The notes under the pieces were generated by a model that had not been told where the DNA came from, did no database searches, and saw only the letters and a program-made list of their open reading frames with translations. A stretch of DNA of 64,000 nucleotides from the NCBI RefSeq assembly GCF_021431925.1, contig NZ_CP090371.1, forward strand, positions 2,604,001 through 2,668,000, read 5' to 3'. Origin of the DNA: Halobaculum sp. CBA1158. Its GTDB lineage: Archaea; Halobacteriota; Halobacteria; Halobacteriales; Haloferacaceae. Positions 2 to 10,096 of this stretch are shown here, one piece after another; position 1 is the first letter of the stretch, and the number at the start of each line of letters is the position of its first letter. Made by a program: the position numbers and the translations under genes.

Positions 2-2110
2 GACGTGGACCTGGAGTCGGTCCGCGACGGGGTCCGCGACGTCGACGTGGTCGCGTCCTCGGAGCAGTTGTGCCGGGACGCGCTTCCGGCCGTCGACGGA
101 CTGATCGACGAGTACGACCTCGACCAGTTGATCGTGGGTGCCTGCGACGACGGCTGTAAGTCGAAGCTGGACGACCTGGTCGAGCGCAAGGGGCTCCACC
201 CGGACGCGGCCGCCTACGTCGACCACCGCGAACGGGCCGGCTGGGTCCACGAGCGCGACGACGCGACCGACAAGACGGCGCGGCTGATCAACGCCCGCCG
301 AACCGGCATCGAGTACGAGGCGGCCACGCGCACAGTCTCCCGGGAGGCCGGCGAGGAGGTCCTCGTCGTCGGCGACGCCGAAACCGCGGCCGCGCTCGCC
401 GACACCGCCGACGTGACCCTGCTCGCGGACGGCGCGGAGTACGCGGACGCCGACGCGGATCTCTCGGACGTGAGCGTCGAGCGCGGCCGCCTCGCCGCCG
501 TCGAAGGGCGGTTCGGCGAGTTCGAGGTGCAGGTGGAGGCGCGCGTCACCGAGGACTGTATCTCCTGTATGAAGTGCGTGAAGGAGGGCCCGGACGGGAT
601 GGTGACGCGCCGCCCAGTCGACATCCACCCGGACGCCCCGGAGGGCGAGTGGACCGACTGCTGTCCGACCGACGCGATCGATCTGTCGGGCGTCACGAGC
701 ACCCTCGACGCGGATCAGGTCGTGGACCCGGCGGGCACGTCGACCGCACGAGGTGGCCGAATCGGCTACTACACCGGCCCGGTCGACGCCGGCACGATCG
801 CGTCGGTCGAGTCGCTGTTGGGCGGGGTCGAGAAGCCGAAGTACCTCGATCTGGAGATGGACGTGTGCGCCGCGGGCGACTCGGGCCAGCAGGGCTGTAC
901 CGCCTGCGTCGACGCCTGTCCCCACGACGCCGTCGACCGTCCCGCCGTCGACGAGGTCGAGTTCGACCTGACCGCCTGCGAGAACTGCGGCGCGTGCACC
1001 TCCTCGTGCCCGACGGGCGCGACGTCGCTGCGGGAGCCGTCGAACGAGCGGATCGCCCGCGAGGTCGAGGCGCTGCTCAGCCGCGAGACCGACGAGGGCG
1101 GCATCTGGCCGTTCACCGGCGGCGACGACGGCATCGAGACGCCCGTCGTCGCGTTCACCTGCGACGAGCGCGCCGCCGACGCGCTCGACGAGTACGGCCG
1201 CCGCGCGGCCGCCGGCGAGGACATCACCTACCCGCCGGTGCTCCCGGTCGAGGTGAACTGCACCGACACCGTCGGCGAGGCGCACGTCATGCACGCGCTC
1301 GCCGCCGGCGCGGCCGGCGTCGCCATCGTCGGCTGCGGGGGCTCGTGTCTCCACTCCGGCCCGGACCCGAAGGCCGAACTCGTCGAGCGGCTCAACCGCG
1401 CGACGACGGACCTGGGCCTGGGCGAGCGCGTCGGCTTCTTCGCGCCCGACCCCCGCGAACCCGCCGCGTTCGCCGAGGATATCAGCCGGTTCACCGAACT
1501 GACGCTGGACCCGACGCCCGTCCCCGAGGGCGAGCATCGTTCGACGGGCGTCGTCCGCGAGGACAAGCCCAACCCCGCGTTCAACAGCCACGACTGGACG
1601 CTCGAGTCGGTGCGCCGGATCCTCGAGTTCACCGAGCCCGAGCGCGACACGATCCGGGGGCTGAAGGACTTCGGCGTGATGTCCGTCTCCGACGCCTGCA
1701 ACCTCACGCCGACGTGTTCGACGCTGTGTCCGACGGACGCCATCCGCCGGACGAACGACGGGAACCTCCAGTTCAACCACGAGGACTGCGTCAACTGCGA
1801 GCTCTGCGAGGAGGGCTGTCCCGAGACCGCCATCACGATGGAGCAGGGATTAGACCTCTCACGACTGCCGGAGAACCGGACGGCCGGAGAGGGTGCCGTC
1901 GACGCCGACGACCCCCGCTGGGAGACCGTCCACGACGGGGAAATGCTGGAGTGCGCCCGCTGTGGCGACCCGTTCACCTCCGCGGCCTCGGCCGAGCACA
2001 TCCAGTCGGAGGTCGGCGACCTCGTCGAGGGGATCGCGCCCGACTCCGACCACAGCGTCTTCGAGTACTGCGGCGACTGCCGCGCGCAGTTGCTGTTCGA
2101 CAACCGATGA
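2..2110 (+). CDS. Polyferredoxin with HdrA/MvhD-like segments (5' partial)
   Basis: Multi-cluster iron-sulfur protein, probably an electron-transfer subunit for a cytoplasmic oxidoreductase. The reading frame is open to the left edge and the first usable codon is a GTG at 5, so the true start is probably outside. Counting from that GTG, cysteine sets lie near residues 185-191 (CISCMKC), 298-305 (CTACVDAC), 325-335 (CENCGACTSSC) and two more ferredoxin motifs in the last third (CSTLCP; CVNCELCEEGC). The middle holds an MvhD-like segment with scattered cysteines (TCDE, VNCTDT, GCGGSC). A C-terminal CARC...YCGDC pair looks like a zinc ribbon. The TorD-type chaperone follows 49 bases downstream, which suggests service to a molybdenum or tungsten oxidoreductase (often a formate dehydrogenase or DMSO-reductase relative) encoded to the left. 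The partner is inferred, not seen. Confidence 0.85.
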   Translation, partial: DVDLESVRDGVRDVDVVASSEQLCRDALPAVDGLIDEYDLDQLIVGACDDGCKSKLDDLVERKGLHPDAAAYVDHRERAGWVHERDDATDKTARLINARRTGIEYEAATRTVSREAGEEVLVVGDAETAAALADTADVTLLADGAEYADADADLSDVSVERGRLAAVEGRFGEFEVQVEARVTEDCISCMKCVKEGPDGMVTRRPVDIHPDAPEGEWTDCCPTDAIDLSGVTSTLDADQVVDPAGTSTARGGRIGYYTGPVDAGTIASVESLLGGVEKPKYLDLEMDVCAAGDSGQQGCTACVDACPHDAVDRPAVDEVEFDLTACENCGACTSSCPTGATSLREPSNERIAREVEALLSRETDEGGIWPFTGGDDGIETPVVAFTCDERAADALDEYGRRAAAGEDITYPPVLPVEVNCTDTVGEAHVMHALAAGAAGVAIVGCGGSCLHSGPDPKAELVERLNRATTDLGLGERVGFFAPDPREPAAFAEDISRFTELTLDPTPVPEGEHRSTGVVREDKPNPAFNSHDWTLESVRRILEFTEPERDTIRGLKDFGVMSVSDACNLTPTCSTLCPTDAIRRTNDGNLQFNHEDCVNCELCEEGCPETAITMEQGLDLSRLPENRTAGEGAVDADDPRWETVHDGEMLECARCGDPFTSAASAEHIQSEVGDLVEGIAPDSDHSVFEYCGDCRAQLLFDNR

Positions 2111-2159: not shown

Positions 2160-2792
2160 ATGAGCAACGACGAACTCGCCGTCTACGACGCCCGGATCGA
2201 ACTGATCGACTTCTGTATCGAGGTGTTCCACGACGCGCCGACCGAGGAGTTCCTCTCGCATCTCCTCTCGGGCGACATGCGCACCCCGGAGGACAGCGTC
2301 AACGACCACCTCGACGCCGGCTTCGAGCACGTTCGGGCGTTCGTCGACGCCCACGAGGGCGACGACGTCGAGGAGCTCCACACCGAGCTCCGCCGGAAGT
2401 ACACCGAGGTGTTCGTCGGCCCGCGCCCGCCGGTCCTCATGCACGAGACACACTACCGTGAGGACACGGAGTTCATCGGCGAGGGCCTCGCAGAAGTCGA
2501 GGCCAGCTACGGTGCCGCCGGGTGGACGCCGCCGGAGGAGTACCCCGAAGAGGACGACTTCGTCGCCGTCGAGTTGGCGTTCCTGCGGTGGCTCGTCACC
2601 AAGCAGCGCGAGGGACGGGACGAGACGTTCGGCTACGAACGCGTGTTCCTCGACAACCACCTCATGACGTGGGTCGACGACGCCGTCGCCGACATCCGCG
2701 AGGAGACGGACGAACCGCTGTTCCTGGCGGCCGCGGAGATCCTGGCGGGCCTCGTCGAGTTCGAGGACGAGATCGTCGCACAGATGGCCTAA
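2160..2792 (+). CDS. TorD/DmsD-type molybdoenzyme maturation chaperone
   Basis: All-helical 210-residue cytoplasmic protein of the TorD family, whose members bind the signal region of a molybdopterin enzyme and help cofactor loading before export or assembly. Visible family features are the acidic helical pattern, a central segment (YTEVFVGPRPPVLMHETHY) matching the conserved Y-x-x-L-F-x-GP-x-P-P-Y/H region, and a later LAFLRWLVTKQ helix. It starts at the first ATG after the polyferredoxin, in the same direction, so the two are likely co-transcribed. It supports a Mo/W enzyme just left of the window. Family assignment is good; the client enzyme is unknown. Confidence 0.8.
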   Translation: MSNDELAVYDARIELIDFCIEVFHDAPTEEFLSHLLSGDMRTPEDSVNDHLDAGFEHVRAFVDAHEGDDVEELHTELRRKYTEVFVGPRPPVLMHETHYREDTEFIGEGLAEVEASYGAAGWTPPEEYPEEDDFVAVELAFLRWLVTKQREGRDETFGYERVFLDNHLMTWVDDAVADIREETDEPLFLAAAEILAGLVEFEDEIVAQMA

Positions 2793-3656: not shown

Positions 3657-3778
3657 GATAGAGGATCGCTCGGTCCGCGGACTCAAAGCGTTTGTGTCGG
3701 GACGGCCCGTGCCGCGACGGCCCGTCGGTCGGCGGCGACCGAACGCTTTTGCCCGCGTGAGCCGTGATACGTGTTAGA

Positions 3779-4972
3779 ATGCCGTCCCGACGGAGCATGC
3801 TGGGGAGGCTCGCGGTCGCGGCCGGGATCGGCGTCGCCGGCTGTACGACCGGCGCGCCGCCCGGGCTCCCGCTCGACGCCAACCCGCACTCGGTCCCGAG
3901 CAGACAGTTCGCGCAGAACGACCGGCTCCGACGCGACGCCGACGGAAACGAGCTCCAGGCGCGCCACAGACGCATCCTCCTGTTGGATCTGAAGCGCGAC
4001 CCCTCCGGGGAGGCCGCCGAGACCGTCGAGCGCGCGCTCCGGTCCCTCGAGGCGGCGTACGACTGGGCCCCCGACGGACTGTTTCACGCCCTCGCGTGGG
4101 GGTCGAAGTACTTCGACGACAACGACGCGCTCGGGCGTGTCCCCATCGAGCACCCCGAGGTCCTCACCCGCACCGACGACGAGGACCTCCAGCGCTTCGA
4201 CGCGATGCTCGTGCTGGAGTCCGACGTGGAGTCGCACCTCCCGGCCGCCGAGAGCGCGCTGTTCGGGTCGCGCGACGATCTGAACGGCGAACCGGTCGAG
4301 CACACGCTGGAGGGCGTGTTCCGCCGCCGCGACCGTCGCACGGGGTTCCTCGGCGAGGGGCTCCCCGCCGAGCACGTCGACGTGGAGGGGCTGGAGGCGG
4401 ATGCACCGATGTTCTCGGGGTTCTTTTCGGGCCGGGAAGGGTCGCAGGCGAGCGAGGACCGCGTCGCCATCGAGGACGGCCCGCTGGCCGGCGGCACCAC
4501 AGCGCACCTCTCGCACATCACGTTCGACCTTCCGAACTGGTTCTCCTTCGACGAGGAGAGCCGGATCGGGAAGATGTTCTCGCCCGACTTCACCGGCGAG
4601 GACGTGGCGGACCTCGGGACGGACGTGCCGTTCGCCGACGCGGTGCGCGAACACGCTCGCGACCACGGCAGCGTCGGCCACCACGAGAAGGTCGCGCGCG
4701 TCCGCCGAGACGGCGAGCCGCTCATGCTCCGACGCGACTTCAACACCGTCGACCACGGCCGGACGGGCGTCCACTTCCTCAGCTACCAGCGCAAGCTCGC
4801 GCACTTCCGGCGGACGCGGAAGTCGATGAACGGCTGGTACCTCCGTGACGACCACCCGGACATCACCGACCGCGAGAACAACGGGATCCTCAACTTCATC
4901 AGTACCCAGTCGCGGGCAAACTTCGTCGTCCCGCCGCGGGAGAAGCGAGCGTTCCCGCTCACGATCACCTGA
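3779..4972 (+). CDS. Tat-exported lipoprotein, possible Dyp-type peroxidase relative
   Basis: 397 residues. The start is the ATG at 3779, giving a Tat signal (SRRSMLGRLAVAAGIGVAGC) with the lipobox cysteine at about residue 22, so the protein is predicted to be exported folded and anchored outside the membrane. The body contains MFSGFFSGREGSQASEDRVAIEDG, a HLSHITFDLPNWFS block, LMLRRDFNT and a GVHFLSYQRKLAHF block, which loosely resemble the layout of Tat-secreted Dyp-type (EfeB-like) haem peroxidases. The classic GxxDG motif is not obvious, so the peroxidase call is tentative. A GTG at 15 bases upstream is less likely. Divergent from the three small membrane genes. Confidence 0.75.
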   Translation: MPSRRSMLGRLAVAAGIGVAGCTTGAPPGLPLDANPHSVPSRQFAQNDRLRRDADGNELQARHRRILLLDLKRDPSGEAAETVERALRSLEAAYDWAPDGLFHALAWGSKYFDDNDALGRVPIEHPEVLTRTDDEDLQRFDAMLVLESDVESHLPAAESALFGSRDDLNGEPVEHTLEGVFRRRDRRTGFLGEGLPAEHVDVEGLEADAPMFSGFFSGREGSQASEDRVAIEDGPLAGGTTAHLSHITFDLPNWFSFDEESRIGKMFSPDFTGEDVADLGTDVPFADAVREHARDHGSVGHHEKVARVRRDGEPLMLRRDFNTVDHGRTGVHFLSYQRKLAHFRRTRKSMNGWYLRDDHPDITDRENNGILNFISTQSRANFVVPPREKRAFPLTIT

Positions 4973-6481: not shown

Positions 6482-7432
6482 TCAGTCACCGTCGCCGTCG
6501 ACGGTGTCGTCGGCGTCGCCGTCGGCAGTCGACTCCGGCGCGTCGGCGTCCGCGTCGTCGACATCGTCGGCGAGCGCCCAGCCCGAGGCCTCCGCGGCCT
6601 CCGCCAGCGGAACGAACTCCCACCCGGCTCGCTCGGCCCACGCGCGCTCACCGTTCGACTCGACGCCGACCAGCACCATCCGGTCGGCGTAGAACATCGA
6701 GTTCGGACCGACCTCCTCCAGGCGCTCGCCCGGGCCGGTGCCGGTCCCGTTGAAGAAGTCCAGGTCCAGCTTGTTGTCGCGTTGGAACTTGTTGATCACG
6801 TGAGCGTCCACGTCGCCGACGATGCCGACGTAGTCGGTCCACGTCTCGGCGTCGGCCAGGGCGGCGTGGAGGTTCGCGAGCGACCGGATCGCGGCGTACG
6901 ACACCGCCATCGTCATCTCGCTTTTTGTCTCGCCGTGCGGGCCGGTCGCCTCCGGCTGCTCTTGGGTCTCGGACTCGCGCGCGTCGGCGGGGACGCCGCC
7001 CCCGCCCCCGCCCTCGCGGGGAATACCGACGGGCCTGTCGTCGTCGGCGTACGGGACCCGCGGCGTCGACGACTCCAGGTCCGCGCCGAGGTCGTCGTCG
7101 TACTCCGGCGGGTCGGGTTCGTCCGCGCCCAGCTCGTCGGCGCGGGCCGCGCCCGAACGCCAGCCGTCTGTGCCGGCGTCGCTGCCGGCGGTGTCGGCGG
7201 TGTCGGCGGTGTCGGCGGCATCGATGGCATCAGCGGCGTCGGCGGCGGTATCGCCAACCGAGTCGGCGTCCTCGCCGGCGTCGAGGTCGTCGCGCTCGGA
7301 GTCGTCGGGAGTTCCGTCGGCGTCGAGGTCGTCGCTCTCGGAGTCGTCGCCCCAGAACCAGTCGCCGCGGTTCGGTCGCTCCTCGTCGTCGGGCTGTACG
7401 TCCAGTTCGTCGAGGTCGATCTTGTCGGGCAT
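6482..7432 (-). CDS. Acidic protein with C-terminal globular domain, 316 residues
   Basis: The first half is very acidic and low in complexity, including near-exact repeats (DAADAIDAADTADTADTAG). A more structured domain spans about residues 170-280 (SYAAIRSLANLHAALADAE, VGIVGDVDAHVINKFQRDN, SMFYADRMVLVGVESNG), which looks like a conserved haloarchaeal domain, then an acidic tail. It begins two bases beyond the stop of the AOR-like gene on the same strand, so the two are likely co-transcribed. A regulatory or cofactor-related role is possible from position; function unknown. Confidence 0.7.
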   Translation of the reverse strand: MPDKIDLDELDVQPDDEERPNRGDWFWGDDSESDDLDADGTPDDSERDDLDAGEDADSVGDTAADAADAIDAADTADTADTAGSDAGTDGWRSGAARADELGADEPDPPEYDDDLGADLESSTPRVPYADDDRPVGIPREGGGGGGVPADARESETQEQPEATGPHGETKSEMTMAVSYAAIRSLANLHAALADAETWTDYVGIVGDVDAHVINKFQRDNKLDLDFFNGTGTGPGERLEEVGPNSMFYADRMVLVGVESNGERAWAERAGWEFVPLAEAAEASGWALADDVDDADADAPESTADGDADDTVDGDGD

Positions 7433-7433
7433 G

Positions 7434-9197
7434 TCAGTCGTCGGCCCGTGAGGGCTCGGGGTGTCCGTCGAGCACGTCGGTCGGCAGGTCCAGCGATCGG
7501 CACCGCTCGGGCGTCGGGAGGCCGTCGTCGTCCCACTCGCGGGCGGCGTAGTAGGCGTCGAGCAGGCGCGCGAACGCCGCGGGGTCGACGGCGCGGCCCG
7601 CCGCGGGGGCGTCGCCCTCGGGCAGCGGGTCGGCGAACCGCGGCGGGAGCTCGTCGTCCGCGCGGTCGAACCCCTCGCGGGCGTTGAACAGCCGCACGAG
7701 CGTCCAGATCCGCTCTCCGGTACGGGCGAGGTCGTCGTGGGCGACGCCGAGCGCGTCGAGCCACTCCGCGCCCAGATCGCCCCACAGCGTCTCGCCGGCG
7801 AAGTCGTCGACGACGAGGCTCCACAGCACAGCGCGGGCGTTCTGCGCGCCCACGACGGCGGCGACCCGGCGGGCGGTGTCCCAGTCCTCGCGGAACACCT
7901 CCTCCTCGATGGGTCGCGCGCGGCGGTGACAGCCGCCGCGGTCGCTGGTCGCGTACGCGAGCGCCATCCCGAGCGCGCCGCGGGGGTCGTAGGCGGGCAG
8001 CTCCATCGACTTCACCGTCGGCACGAGGTCGTCGCCGCCGCGACGCTCGGCGGCGGCGTCGACGCCCTCCGCGAGCGCGTCCGCGAGCGCGTCGCCGTCC
8101 GCCCGGCGGGCGATCCGCTCGATCAGCCCGCGCGCGCCGTCCTCGTCGCCGAAGTCGAACTCGACCTCGTCGGCGCGCACGGCCCACGCGACGGCGTTGC
8201 CGGCGGTGATCACGTCGACGCCGAGGCGGTCGCACGCCTCGCCCAGCGCCGCGACCGCGTCGAAGTCGTCCATCCCCAGCCCCGCGCCGAGCGTCATCGG
8301 GGCGGCCCCGCGGGGCACCGTCTCGCCGTCGTCGGTCTCCACGCGGAAGCCGCCGGGCACGTCGTCTTCGGGGTGCTCGCGCCCGTCGGCGGCCTCGGCG
8401 GCCGCCTCGATCCCGATACCGTCGACCGCGGCGGCCGTGTCGCGCCAGCCGTTCGCGGGCAACACGCCCACCTCGGCGGCGAAGTCGATCGACTCCAGCG
8501 TCTCGCCGGCGGTCTGCCACCTGCCGGCGTCGTCGTCCGCGAACGCCGCCTCGTACTCCTCGTGGAGGTCGGCGAGCGCGTCGGGCACGGCCGGCGGGTC
8601 GCCGCGGGCGACGACCGCCTTGAGGTTCTTCGAGCCCATCACCGCCCCCGCGCCGCCGCGGCCGGCGTGGTGGTCGCCGGCGTCGGAGGCGATCGTCGCG
8701 TACGCGACCCCCGACTCGCCGGCGGGGCCGACGCACGCGACCGCCGCGTCGGGGTACGCCTCCGCGGTGGCGACGGTGTCAGCGTCCGCGAGGTCGCCCG
8801 CCGGTTCGAGTCGGGGGTCGCCGTCGCCGACGACCAGCGCCGTCGGCTCCTCGGCCGCGCCGGTCACGAGCACGCCGAGACAGTCGGCCAGCGAGCCCGC
8901 GAGCCGGTCGGGGAACGTCCCCCCGGAGTAGGAGTCGAGGAACGCCCCCGTCAGCGGGGACTTCGTCACCGCGGCGTATCTCGACTCGCCGGGGAGCGCC
9001 CCCGACAGCGGACCGAGCATGAACCCGAGGAGGTTCTCGGGACCGCGCGGGTCGGCCCCGGGCGACAGCTCCTCGTACAGGTACCGCGCGCCGAGTCCCT
9101 TTCCGCCGAGATAGCGGCGACGCCACTCCGCGGGGATCGGTTCGAACGCGACGGTCCCGGCCGAGAGGTCGACGCGGAGTACCCGGGTCCGTGTCAT
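7434..9197 (-). CDS. Aldehyde:ferredoxin oxidoreductase-family protein lacking Fe-S ligands
   Basis: 587 residues of the tungsten-dependent AOR family, which oxidises aldehydes to acids. The tungstopterin-binding N-terminal part is clear (YLGGKGLGARYLYEEL, GPLSGALPG, KSPLTGAF, SYSGGTFPDRL), as are later family blocks (ACDRLGVDVITAGNAVAWA; YDPRGALGMALAYATSDRGG). The CxxCxxxC cluster expected before the MDDFDAV block and the fourth cysteine near the C-terminus are absent: only five cysteines are present (ADC, VAC, EAC, GGC, RC) and none forms the motif. It probably binds a pterin but no [4Fe-4S] cluster, so its electron acceptor or activity may differ. The ATG at 9195-9197 is used; the longer frame upstream is not protein-like. 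mobA and yqeC lie beside it. Confidence 0.85.
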   Translation of the reverse strand: MTRTRVLRVDLSAGTVAFEPIPAEWRRRYLGGKGLGARYLYEELSPGADPRGPENLLGFMLGPLSGALPGESRYAAVTKSPLTGAFLDSYSGGTFPDRLAGSLADCLGVLVTGAAEEPTALVVGDGDPRLEPAGDLADADTVATAEAYPDAAVACVGPAGESGVAYATIASDAGDHHAGRGGAGAVMGSKNLKAVVARGDPPAVPDALADLHEEYEAAFADDDAGRWQTAGETLESIDFAAEVGVLPANGWRDTAAAVDGIGIEAAAEAADGREHPEDDVPGGFRVETDDGETVPRGAAPMTLGAGLGMDDFDAVAALGEACDRLGVDVITAGNAVAWAVRADEVEFDFGDEDGARGLIERIARRADGDALADALAEGVDAAAERRGGDDLVPTVKSMELPAYDPRGALGMALAYATSDRGGCHRRARPIEEEVFREDWDTARRVAAVVGAQNARAVLWSLVVDDFAGETLWGDLGAEWLDALGVAHDDLARTGERIWTLVRLFNAREGFDRADDELPPRFADPLPEGDAPAAGRAVDPAAFARLLDAYYAAREWDDDGLPTPERCRSLDLPTDVLDGHPEPSRADD

Positions 9198-9424: not shown

Positions 9425-10096
9425 GTGACACGCTACGCCGCCGTCGTCGCCGGCGGGCGGTCGACCCGCTTCGGCGACCGCGACAAGGCCGTCGCCGACC
9501 TGGCCGGCACGCCGATGATCCGCCGCGTCGCCGACCGCCTCGCGGACGCGACCGACCGACTGGTCGTCAACTGCCGGGCCGACCAGCGGGCGGCCATCGA
9601 GGAGGCGATGGTCGGCTATCCGAACCCCGTCCGCTACGCCGAGGACCCCGACCCGGACGAGGGACCGATGGCCGGGATACGGACCGCGCTTCGCGGGGTG
9701 GAGCGATGGGCCGGCGACGGGGACGGCGACGGCGACGCGGCCGGCGCGGACGCCGCCGCCTTCGTCGTCGCCTGCGACATGCCGTTCGTCGACCCGGCAC
9801 TCGTCGGTGCCCTGTTCGACCGACTCGAGGAGGGGTACGACGCGGCGGTCCCTCGCGTCGACGGCGAGTGGTTCCAGACGACCCACGCGGCCTACCGCGC
9901 GGGACCGATGGCCGACGCCTGCGACGCCGCACTCGCCAGGGGCGACCGGAAGATCATCGCGCCGCTGTTCGACCTCGAGTACGCGGTGCTCGACGACGAC
10001 GCGTTGGCGGACCTCGGCGTCGACGACCGGAGCTTCGAGAACCTCAACACCCGCGAGGAGTTCGAGGCGGCCGCGGAGACGTTCGCGTCCCGGTAG
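9425..10096 (+). CDS. mobA: Molybdenum cofactor guanylyltransferase MobA
   Basis: Transfers GMP from GTP to molybdopterin, giving the guanine dinucleotide form used by DMSO-reductase-type enzymes. 223 residues from a GTG start (VTRYAAVVAGGRSTRFGDRDKA). The nucleotide-binding signature AAVVAGGRSTRFGDRDK is at the N-terminus, followed by the YAEDPDPDEGPMAGIRTAL block and the metal-binding VVACDMPFVDP. An acidic insert (GDGDGDGDAAGADA) near residue 100 is probably a halophilic loop. Divergent from the AOR-like gene and convergent with yqeC. The cofactor form fits the TorD-client enzyme rather than AOR, which uses bis-pterin without nucleotide. Confidence 0.9.
   Translation: MTRYAAVVAGGRSTRFGDRDKAVADLAGTPMIRRVADRLADATDRLVVNCRADQRAAIEEAMVGYPNPVRYAEDPDPDEGPMAGIRTALRGVERWAGDGDGDGDAAGADAAAFVVACDMPFVDPALVGALFDRLEEGYDAAVPRVDGEWFQTTHAAYRAGPMADACDAALARGDRKIIAPLFDLEYAVLDDDALADLGVDDRSFENLNTREEFEAAAETFASR

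Follow-up and report, generated by a model that had tools for sequence, protein, structure and literature searches.

The ligands that hold the cofactors of tungsten oxidoreductases (WORs) are described as nearly fixed: in the main text of a 2026 classification of about 4,000 of these proteins, the ligands of the [4Fe-4S] cluster and of the pterin vary very little, and the simplest class consists of a large subunit with one cluster (PMC13328260). The usual active-site set of the aldehyde-oxidising members comprises Thr243, Glu313, Tyr427 and His448 (main text of PMC13328260; PMC12096430), and Glu313 has been described as universally conserved among known aldehyde:ferredoxin oxidoreductases (AORs; PMC12096430). 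A cluster-free class is not seen in the main text of the classification (PMC13328260), and a search of the main texts in PMC found no published cluster-free AOR. Members of the family have also been connected with cofactor maturation: MobA can turn the bis-Mo-MPT taken from YdhV, an AOR-family protein, into bis-MGD, and the apo form of YdhV takes up bis-Mo-MPT again but not bis-MGD (PMC9103625). Among accessory proteins of related enzymes, FdhD is required for the last steps of the tungsten formate dehydrogenase (FDH) of Methylorubrum extorquens (PMC13197769), and YqeC was proposed in 2008 as an accessory protein of selenium hydroxylases (PMC2276186).

The window analysed here is a 64,000-nucleotide stretch of Halobaculum sp. 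CBA1158, and it contains, at 7434..9197 on the minus strand, a gene for a 587-aa protein of this family. AFOR_N (E 4e-61) and AFOR_C (E 6e-76) span the entire product, and the two Pfam domains together with a predicted AOR fold place it in the AOR/WOR family. The frame is open and free of stops, with a GC3 of 0.95. Exactly five cysteines are encoded (residues 106, 155, 322, 423 and 566); the columns of residues 155, 322 and 423 are near-invariant in the cluster-free clade described below and are mostly Cys in cluster-bearing relatives too. No CxxCxxxC motif occurs in any of the three coding-strand frames of the gene, so no hidden frameshift masks one. Two further AOR-family genes of the same genome keep the motif (L001, PTCHSCPVACKK; L002, GTCSACAFACK).

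Aligned with Pyrococcus furiosus AOR (1aor), whose numbering is used for alignment columns, the protein has lost all four [4Fe-4S] ligands, C288, C291, C295 and C494. The stretch that carries the first three corresponds to residues 273-284 (REHPEDDVPGGF; 8346..8381, minus strand), in which the cysteines are replaced or deleted, and Asp464 (7806..7808, minus strand) stands in place of the distal ligand Cys494; the CxxCxxxC and distal Cys by which Class I WORs hold their cluster are thus both absent. When 98 distinct cluster-free sequences were compared column by column with 36 cluster-bearing ones, each cluster position was Cys in all 36 of the latter, the proximal motif was present in 0/98 of the former, and Asp occupied position 494 wherever the distal site aligned (97/98, with one gap). 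The initial annotation had reported that the CxxCxxxC and the distal cysteine were missing and that none of only five cysteines formed a motif, and both points hold: the alignment with AOR reveals no overlooked cysteine at the cluster positions, the loss is common to all 98 orthologues rather than unique to this sequence, and the frameshift artefact it had allowed for is excluded. In some genomes (L053, L066-L069, L071 and others) tens of residues, variable and for the most part acidic, are inserted where the motif was lost, as would be usual in a surface loop free of structural constraint.

Besides the four cluster positions, only four columns are strictly divergent between the two groups: E311 becomes Arg, Y312 Gly, G106 Leu and N260 Gly. 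Position 313 is Glu in 36/36 cluster-bearing sequences and Ala, Gly or Ser in 98/98 cluster-free ones, so that the triad Glu311-Tyr312-Glu313, conserved in 36/36 or 34-35/36 cluster-bearing relatives, is replaced in the protein of the window by Arg-Gly-Ala (residues 296-298; 8304..8312, minus strand), with Arg and Gly each in 98/98 members. Both Glu313 and the second-shell residues Glu311 and Tyr312 of Class I WORs are therefore absent. The other active-site residues of that class are retained: Thr243 (Thr233 here; 8499..8501, minus strand) and His448 (His424; 7926..7928, minus strand) in 98/98, and Tyr427 in 92/98, the rest having Phe. Asp343 is likewise kept in 98/98 (Asp328; 8214..8216, minus strand), within CDRLGVD, the first pterin-binding motif. 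T243, G95, D343 and H448 are identical across both groups except for one T-to-S change, the segments GAVMGSK and TKSPLTG are nearly invariant across the cluster-free clade, and new arginines appear at 311 (invariant) and at 452 (87/98). The view that the pterin-binding parts are intact therefore stands for R76, G95, D338 and D343 and fails for the triad, which is gone in every member; the loss of Glu313 and its neighbours had been overlooked. Absence of Asp489 was considered as a further special feature and rejected, since 489 is also Phe, Trp, Asn or Cys in many cluster-bearing AORs and hence is not diagnostic. These comparisons show a joint loss of catalytic acid and electron exit, with the remaining pocket kept, and judged from the known mechanism, the loss of both cluster and Glu313 excludes standard AOR chemistry.

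Orthologues with 56-89% identity turned up in most genera when 148 genomes from the family of the source organism were searched, and a subfamily profile matched 157/292 Halobacteria genomes at about E < 1e-260 (a count from the table of matches), compared with about 1e-90 to 1e-105 for canonical AORs; G166, G251, G318 and G309 gave scores between the two groups. Carriers include Halobaculum, Haloarcula, Haloferax, Natrinema, Halorubrum, Natronomonas and Haladaptatus, and a loss confined to the source lineage was rejected on finding the same loss in orthologues across genera. No cluster-free member was seen outside the haloarchaea, all non-haloarchaeal relatives recovered having kept the four cysteines. 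In a quick tree built without the trait columns, and with long branches elsewhere, the cluster-free proteins form one clade (SH-aLRT 100) within a larger cluster-bearing tree, and their sister group consists of cluster-bearing haloarchaeal AORs (L064, L065, L118 and L119; branch 100), which makes the loss of the cluster derived. It probably happened once; independent repeated losses were rejected, as the tree requires one change only. Pairwise dN/dS between close orthologues is 0.17-0.30 by NG86 and about 0.03-0.06 by YN00, dS being near saturation in some YN00 pairs, and 135 alignment columns are nearly invariant in the clade. The cluster-free proteins are thus a haloarchaea-specific, monophyletic subfamily of the AOR/WOR fold under purifying selection.

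An AlphaFold2 model of the 587-aa protein (mean pLDDT 79) has the AOR fold, matching 9mqx (Z 41.8), 1aor (Z 39.3) and 1b25 (also within Z 39-42) over 534-542 residues. The model drops under pLDDT 50 at residues 230-298, 394-402 and 421-429; the cluster-bearing L064, modelled as a control (33 rows), has a mean of 92 and no segment below 50, a comparison confounded by the more diverse control alignment (A2 against A1), so that the drop is a hint only.

The neighbourhood of the gene points away from aldehyde oxidation and towards the biogenesis of molybdenum and tungsten cofactors and of FDH. Starting 1 base past its stop, a DUF7124 protein (6482..7432, minus strand) with a long acidic N-terminal part occupies the same place and strand in 28/87 cluster-free loci. 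On the other side lie a divergent MobA-like nucleotidyltransferase (NTP_transf_3; 9425..10096, plus strand), whose L091 orthologue matches TIGR02665 MobA below the cut-off, and a YqeC family protein (PF19842; 10100..10810, minus strand), whose L097 orthologue scores above the TIGR03172 cut-off. Near the 87 loci, which are partly related so that the counts are not independent, we found FdhA 39 times, YqeC 38 times, DUF7124 28 times and MobA 24 times, and at least one of FdhA, YqeC and MobA near 65/87. Among the other neighbours are NuoF-like subunits and a formaldehyde dehydrogenase-like zinc dehydrogenase. Farther off in the window, a polyferredoxin with FlpD/HdrA-like parts (5..2110, plus strand; 23/87 loci; domains from the L036 orthologue) is followed by a NarJ/TorD-type molybdoenzyme chaperone (2202..2792, plus strand; 17/87 loci; domains from the L091 orthologue), a conserved pair near the cluster-free gene in several genera. 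A DUF7405 protein (3764-4972) with a weak C-terminal match to Dyp-type peroxidases recurs in 15/87 loci. No conserved electron-transfer partner subunit adjoining the cluster-free gene was found in the 87 loci.

As a control for proximity, canonical AORs from the same 38 genomes were examined with the same 10 kb window (39 cluster-free genes, 103 canonical). YqeC lay within 10 kb of 16/39 cluster-free genes versus 3/103 canonical AORs (p 4e-8), FDH of 13/39 versus 1/103 (p 1e-7), and MobA of 12/39 versus 3/103 (p 1e-5); in 18/38 genomes none of the three was within 10 kb of the cluster-free gene. That the arrangement of the genes varies from genus to genus favours a functional link rather than an inherited order. 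All 80 haloarchaeal genomes surveyed have members of the DUF7124 family, whether or not they carry the cluster-free protein, and the copy tied to the cluster-free gene is a second paralogue, which lies directly downstream of it in some genomes; DUF7124 as an obligate partner was accordingly rejected.

These 80 genomes were picked from a sample of the class by AOR status, not at random: 38 have the cluster-free protein, 25 canonical AORs only and 17 no AOR. YqeC is present in 38/38, 16/25 and 0/17 of them, respectively, and an Fdh-alpha above the TIGR01591 cut-off in 36/38 (the exceptions being G154 and G223), 15/25 and 4/17. When correlated change was assessed with independent pairs on an rpoB' tree, the cluster-free protein and YqeC changed the same way in 12.6 pairs versus 0 opposite (p about 2e-4), and the cluster-free protein and FDH in 10.2 versus 1.2 (p about 0.01); among AOR-bearing genomes only, the figures were 6.0 versus 0 for YqeC (p about 0.03) and 6.1 versus 0.4 for FDH (p about 0.06). 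YqeC is the more universal partner: it tracks FDH in haloarchaea, occurring in 51/55 FDH genomes and in only 3 genomes without FDH, and a role as pure marker of selenium hydroxylases was rejected on this ground. Formate dehydrogenases normally need FdhD; no match to FdhD/NarQ (PF02634) was obtained in any of the 80 genomes, 55 of which have an above-cut-off Fdh-alpha, and among the controls Haloferax volcanii was also silent and eight others were positive. Many haloarchaeal Fdh-alpha proteins carry a C-R-[LM]-C-H motif. Given the genomes that have FDH and lack the cluster-free protein, the latter is not required for every haloarchaeal FDH and is no general substitute for FdhD by itself.

What the protein does has to be judged from these patterns. 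The loss of Glu313, taken with a gene context of Mo/W cofactor and FDH genes, shifts the likeliest role from aldehyde oxidation, and we infer that the protein is not an aldehyde:ferredoxin oxidoreductase. A genuine AOR with its Fe-S cluster housed in another subunit or bound through non-Cys ligands would account for the AOR fold and the kept H448, but with Glu313 gone from all members, and with no co-conserved small Fe-S subunit adjoining save the polyferredoxin, usually several kb off, it is very improbable. The decayed paralogue that had been suggested, or a sequencing artefact, would explain the missing catalytic and cluster residues; it is refuted by dN/dS far below 1, the near-invariant columns, the spread of the clade through the class with the same changes in 98 orthologues, the open frame, the absence of a hidden motif and the high GC3. 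More credible, though still unlikely, is a cofactor-free pseudoenzyme in which the AOR fold, perhaps with DUF7124, serves as a protein-binding or regulatory module for FDH or for the YqeC/MobA machinery: catalytic centre and cluster are both lost, the regions round the former active site are predicted to be disordered, and DUF7124 lies directly downstream on the same strand in 28/87 loci, but the near-invariance of T243, G95, D343, H448, GAVMGSK and TKSPLTG is hard to explain unless the pocket has a ligand.

The reading that we tentatively favour, from linkage and co-occurrence, is a putative role in handling the bis-pyranopterin cofactor for FDH biogenesis; gene linkage, the need for FdhD in M. 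extorquens and the haloarchaea's lack of FdhD together tip the balance this way. Bis-MPT is the cofactor form held by AOR-fold proteins, and MobA adds GMP to it, so that the linkage would point to the late cofactor steps; the conversion of YdhV-derived bis-Mo-MPT by MobA is a precedent. Given its conserved state, the pocket may still hold Mo or W as a bis-pyranopterin (bis-MPT) cofactor, and the part above the former cluster would have turned flexible, allowing the cofactor to be loaded and released. Against a carrier, catalytic T243 and H448 are strictly kept, which would not obviously be required of a pure one. Close behind in likelihood, and a serious if doubtful candidate, is a redesigned Mo/W enzyme that dispenses with Fe-S and uses a bis-pyranopterin metal cofactor on a small, probably anionic substrate of C1 type, in a pocket formed by Arg296, His424 and the CHRRAR arginines, with no net redox change or with electrons swapped directly with a soluble donor or FDH. 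The kept T243, Tyr427 and H448, the new arginines at 311 and 452, and FDH, NuoF-like subunits and the zinc dehydrogenase as neighbours speak for such an enzyme, and cluster-free molybdenum enzymes are known from other families, the DMSO reductase of Rhodobacter being one. It is weakened by the loss of a glutamate universal in known AORs, by the lack of a conserved adjoining electron-transfer subunit, and by a linkage to YqeC and MobA at least as strong as that to FDH. The tungsten enzyme with another electron path and the pterin-only enzyme put forward in the initial annotation are both possible. It is also conceivable, if improbable, that FdhD-less haloarchaea mature their Mo/W FDH through a former tungsten oxidoreductase turned bis-pyranopterin carrier acting with YqeC and MobA. 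The absence of FdhD and the link of the clade to YqeC, MobA and FDH raise a testable question: how does FDH receive its finished cofactor without FdhD?

A class-wide haloarchaeal clade that lacks both the cluster ligands and Glu313 breaks the rule of little variation given in the main text of the WOR classification (PMC13328260), and its members would be annotated automatically as aldehyde oxidoreductases. Like Class I WOR/AOR proteins (1aor; Haloferax WOR83, 9q1t), they are single large subunits with AFOR_N and AFOR_C and a full-length fold, and 1aor shares with the window protein 32% identity (Z 39), T243, D343, H448 and most pterin-pocket motifs; unlike that class, they have no [4Fe-4S] ligands, Arg-Gly-Ala/Gly in place of Glu311-Tyr312-Glu313, and linkage to YqeC, MobA and FDH. 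The sister AORs resemble them in identity (43-49%), in the TSDRG(A/G)CH segment and in an aromatic residue at 489, but CYxCPVAC, C494 and the EYE triad are all still present in them. YdhV of Escherichia coli and BamB are AOR-fold proteins described, as is seen here, without the usual second-shell residues (PMC12096430); both have a Cys metal ligand and, in contrast to the proteins described here, an association with Fe-S clusters, and BamB is only about 21-25% identical in sequence to the modelled protein. With chaperones of the FdhD/XdhC type, to which they are unrelated as proteins, the cluster-free proteins would, in the proposed role, share the task of handling the pterin cofactor of one dedicated molybdoenzyme; FdhD itself transfers sulfur and has bis-MGD as the form on which it acts.
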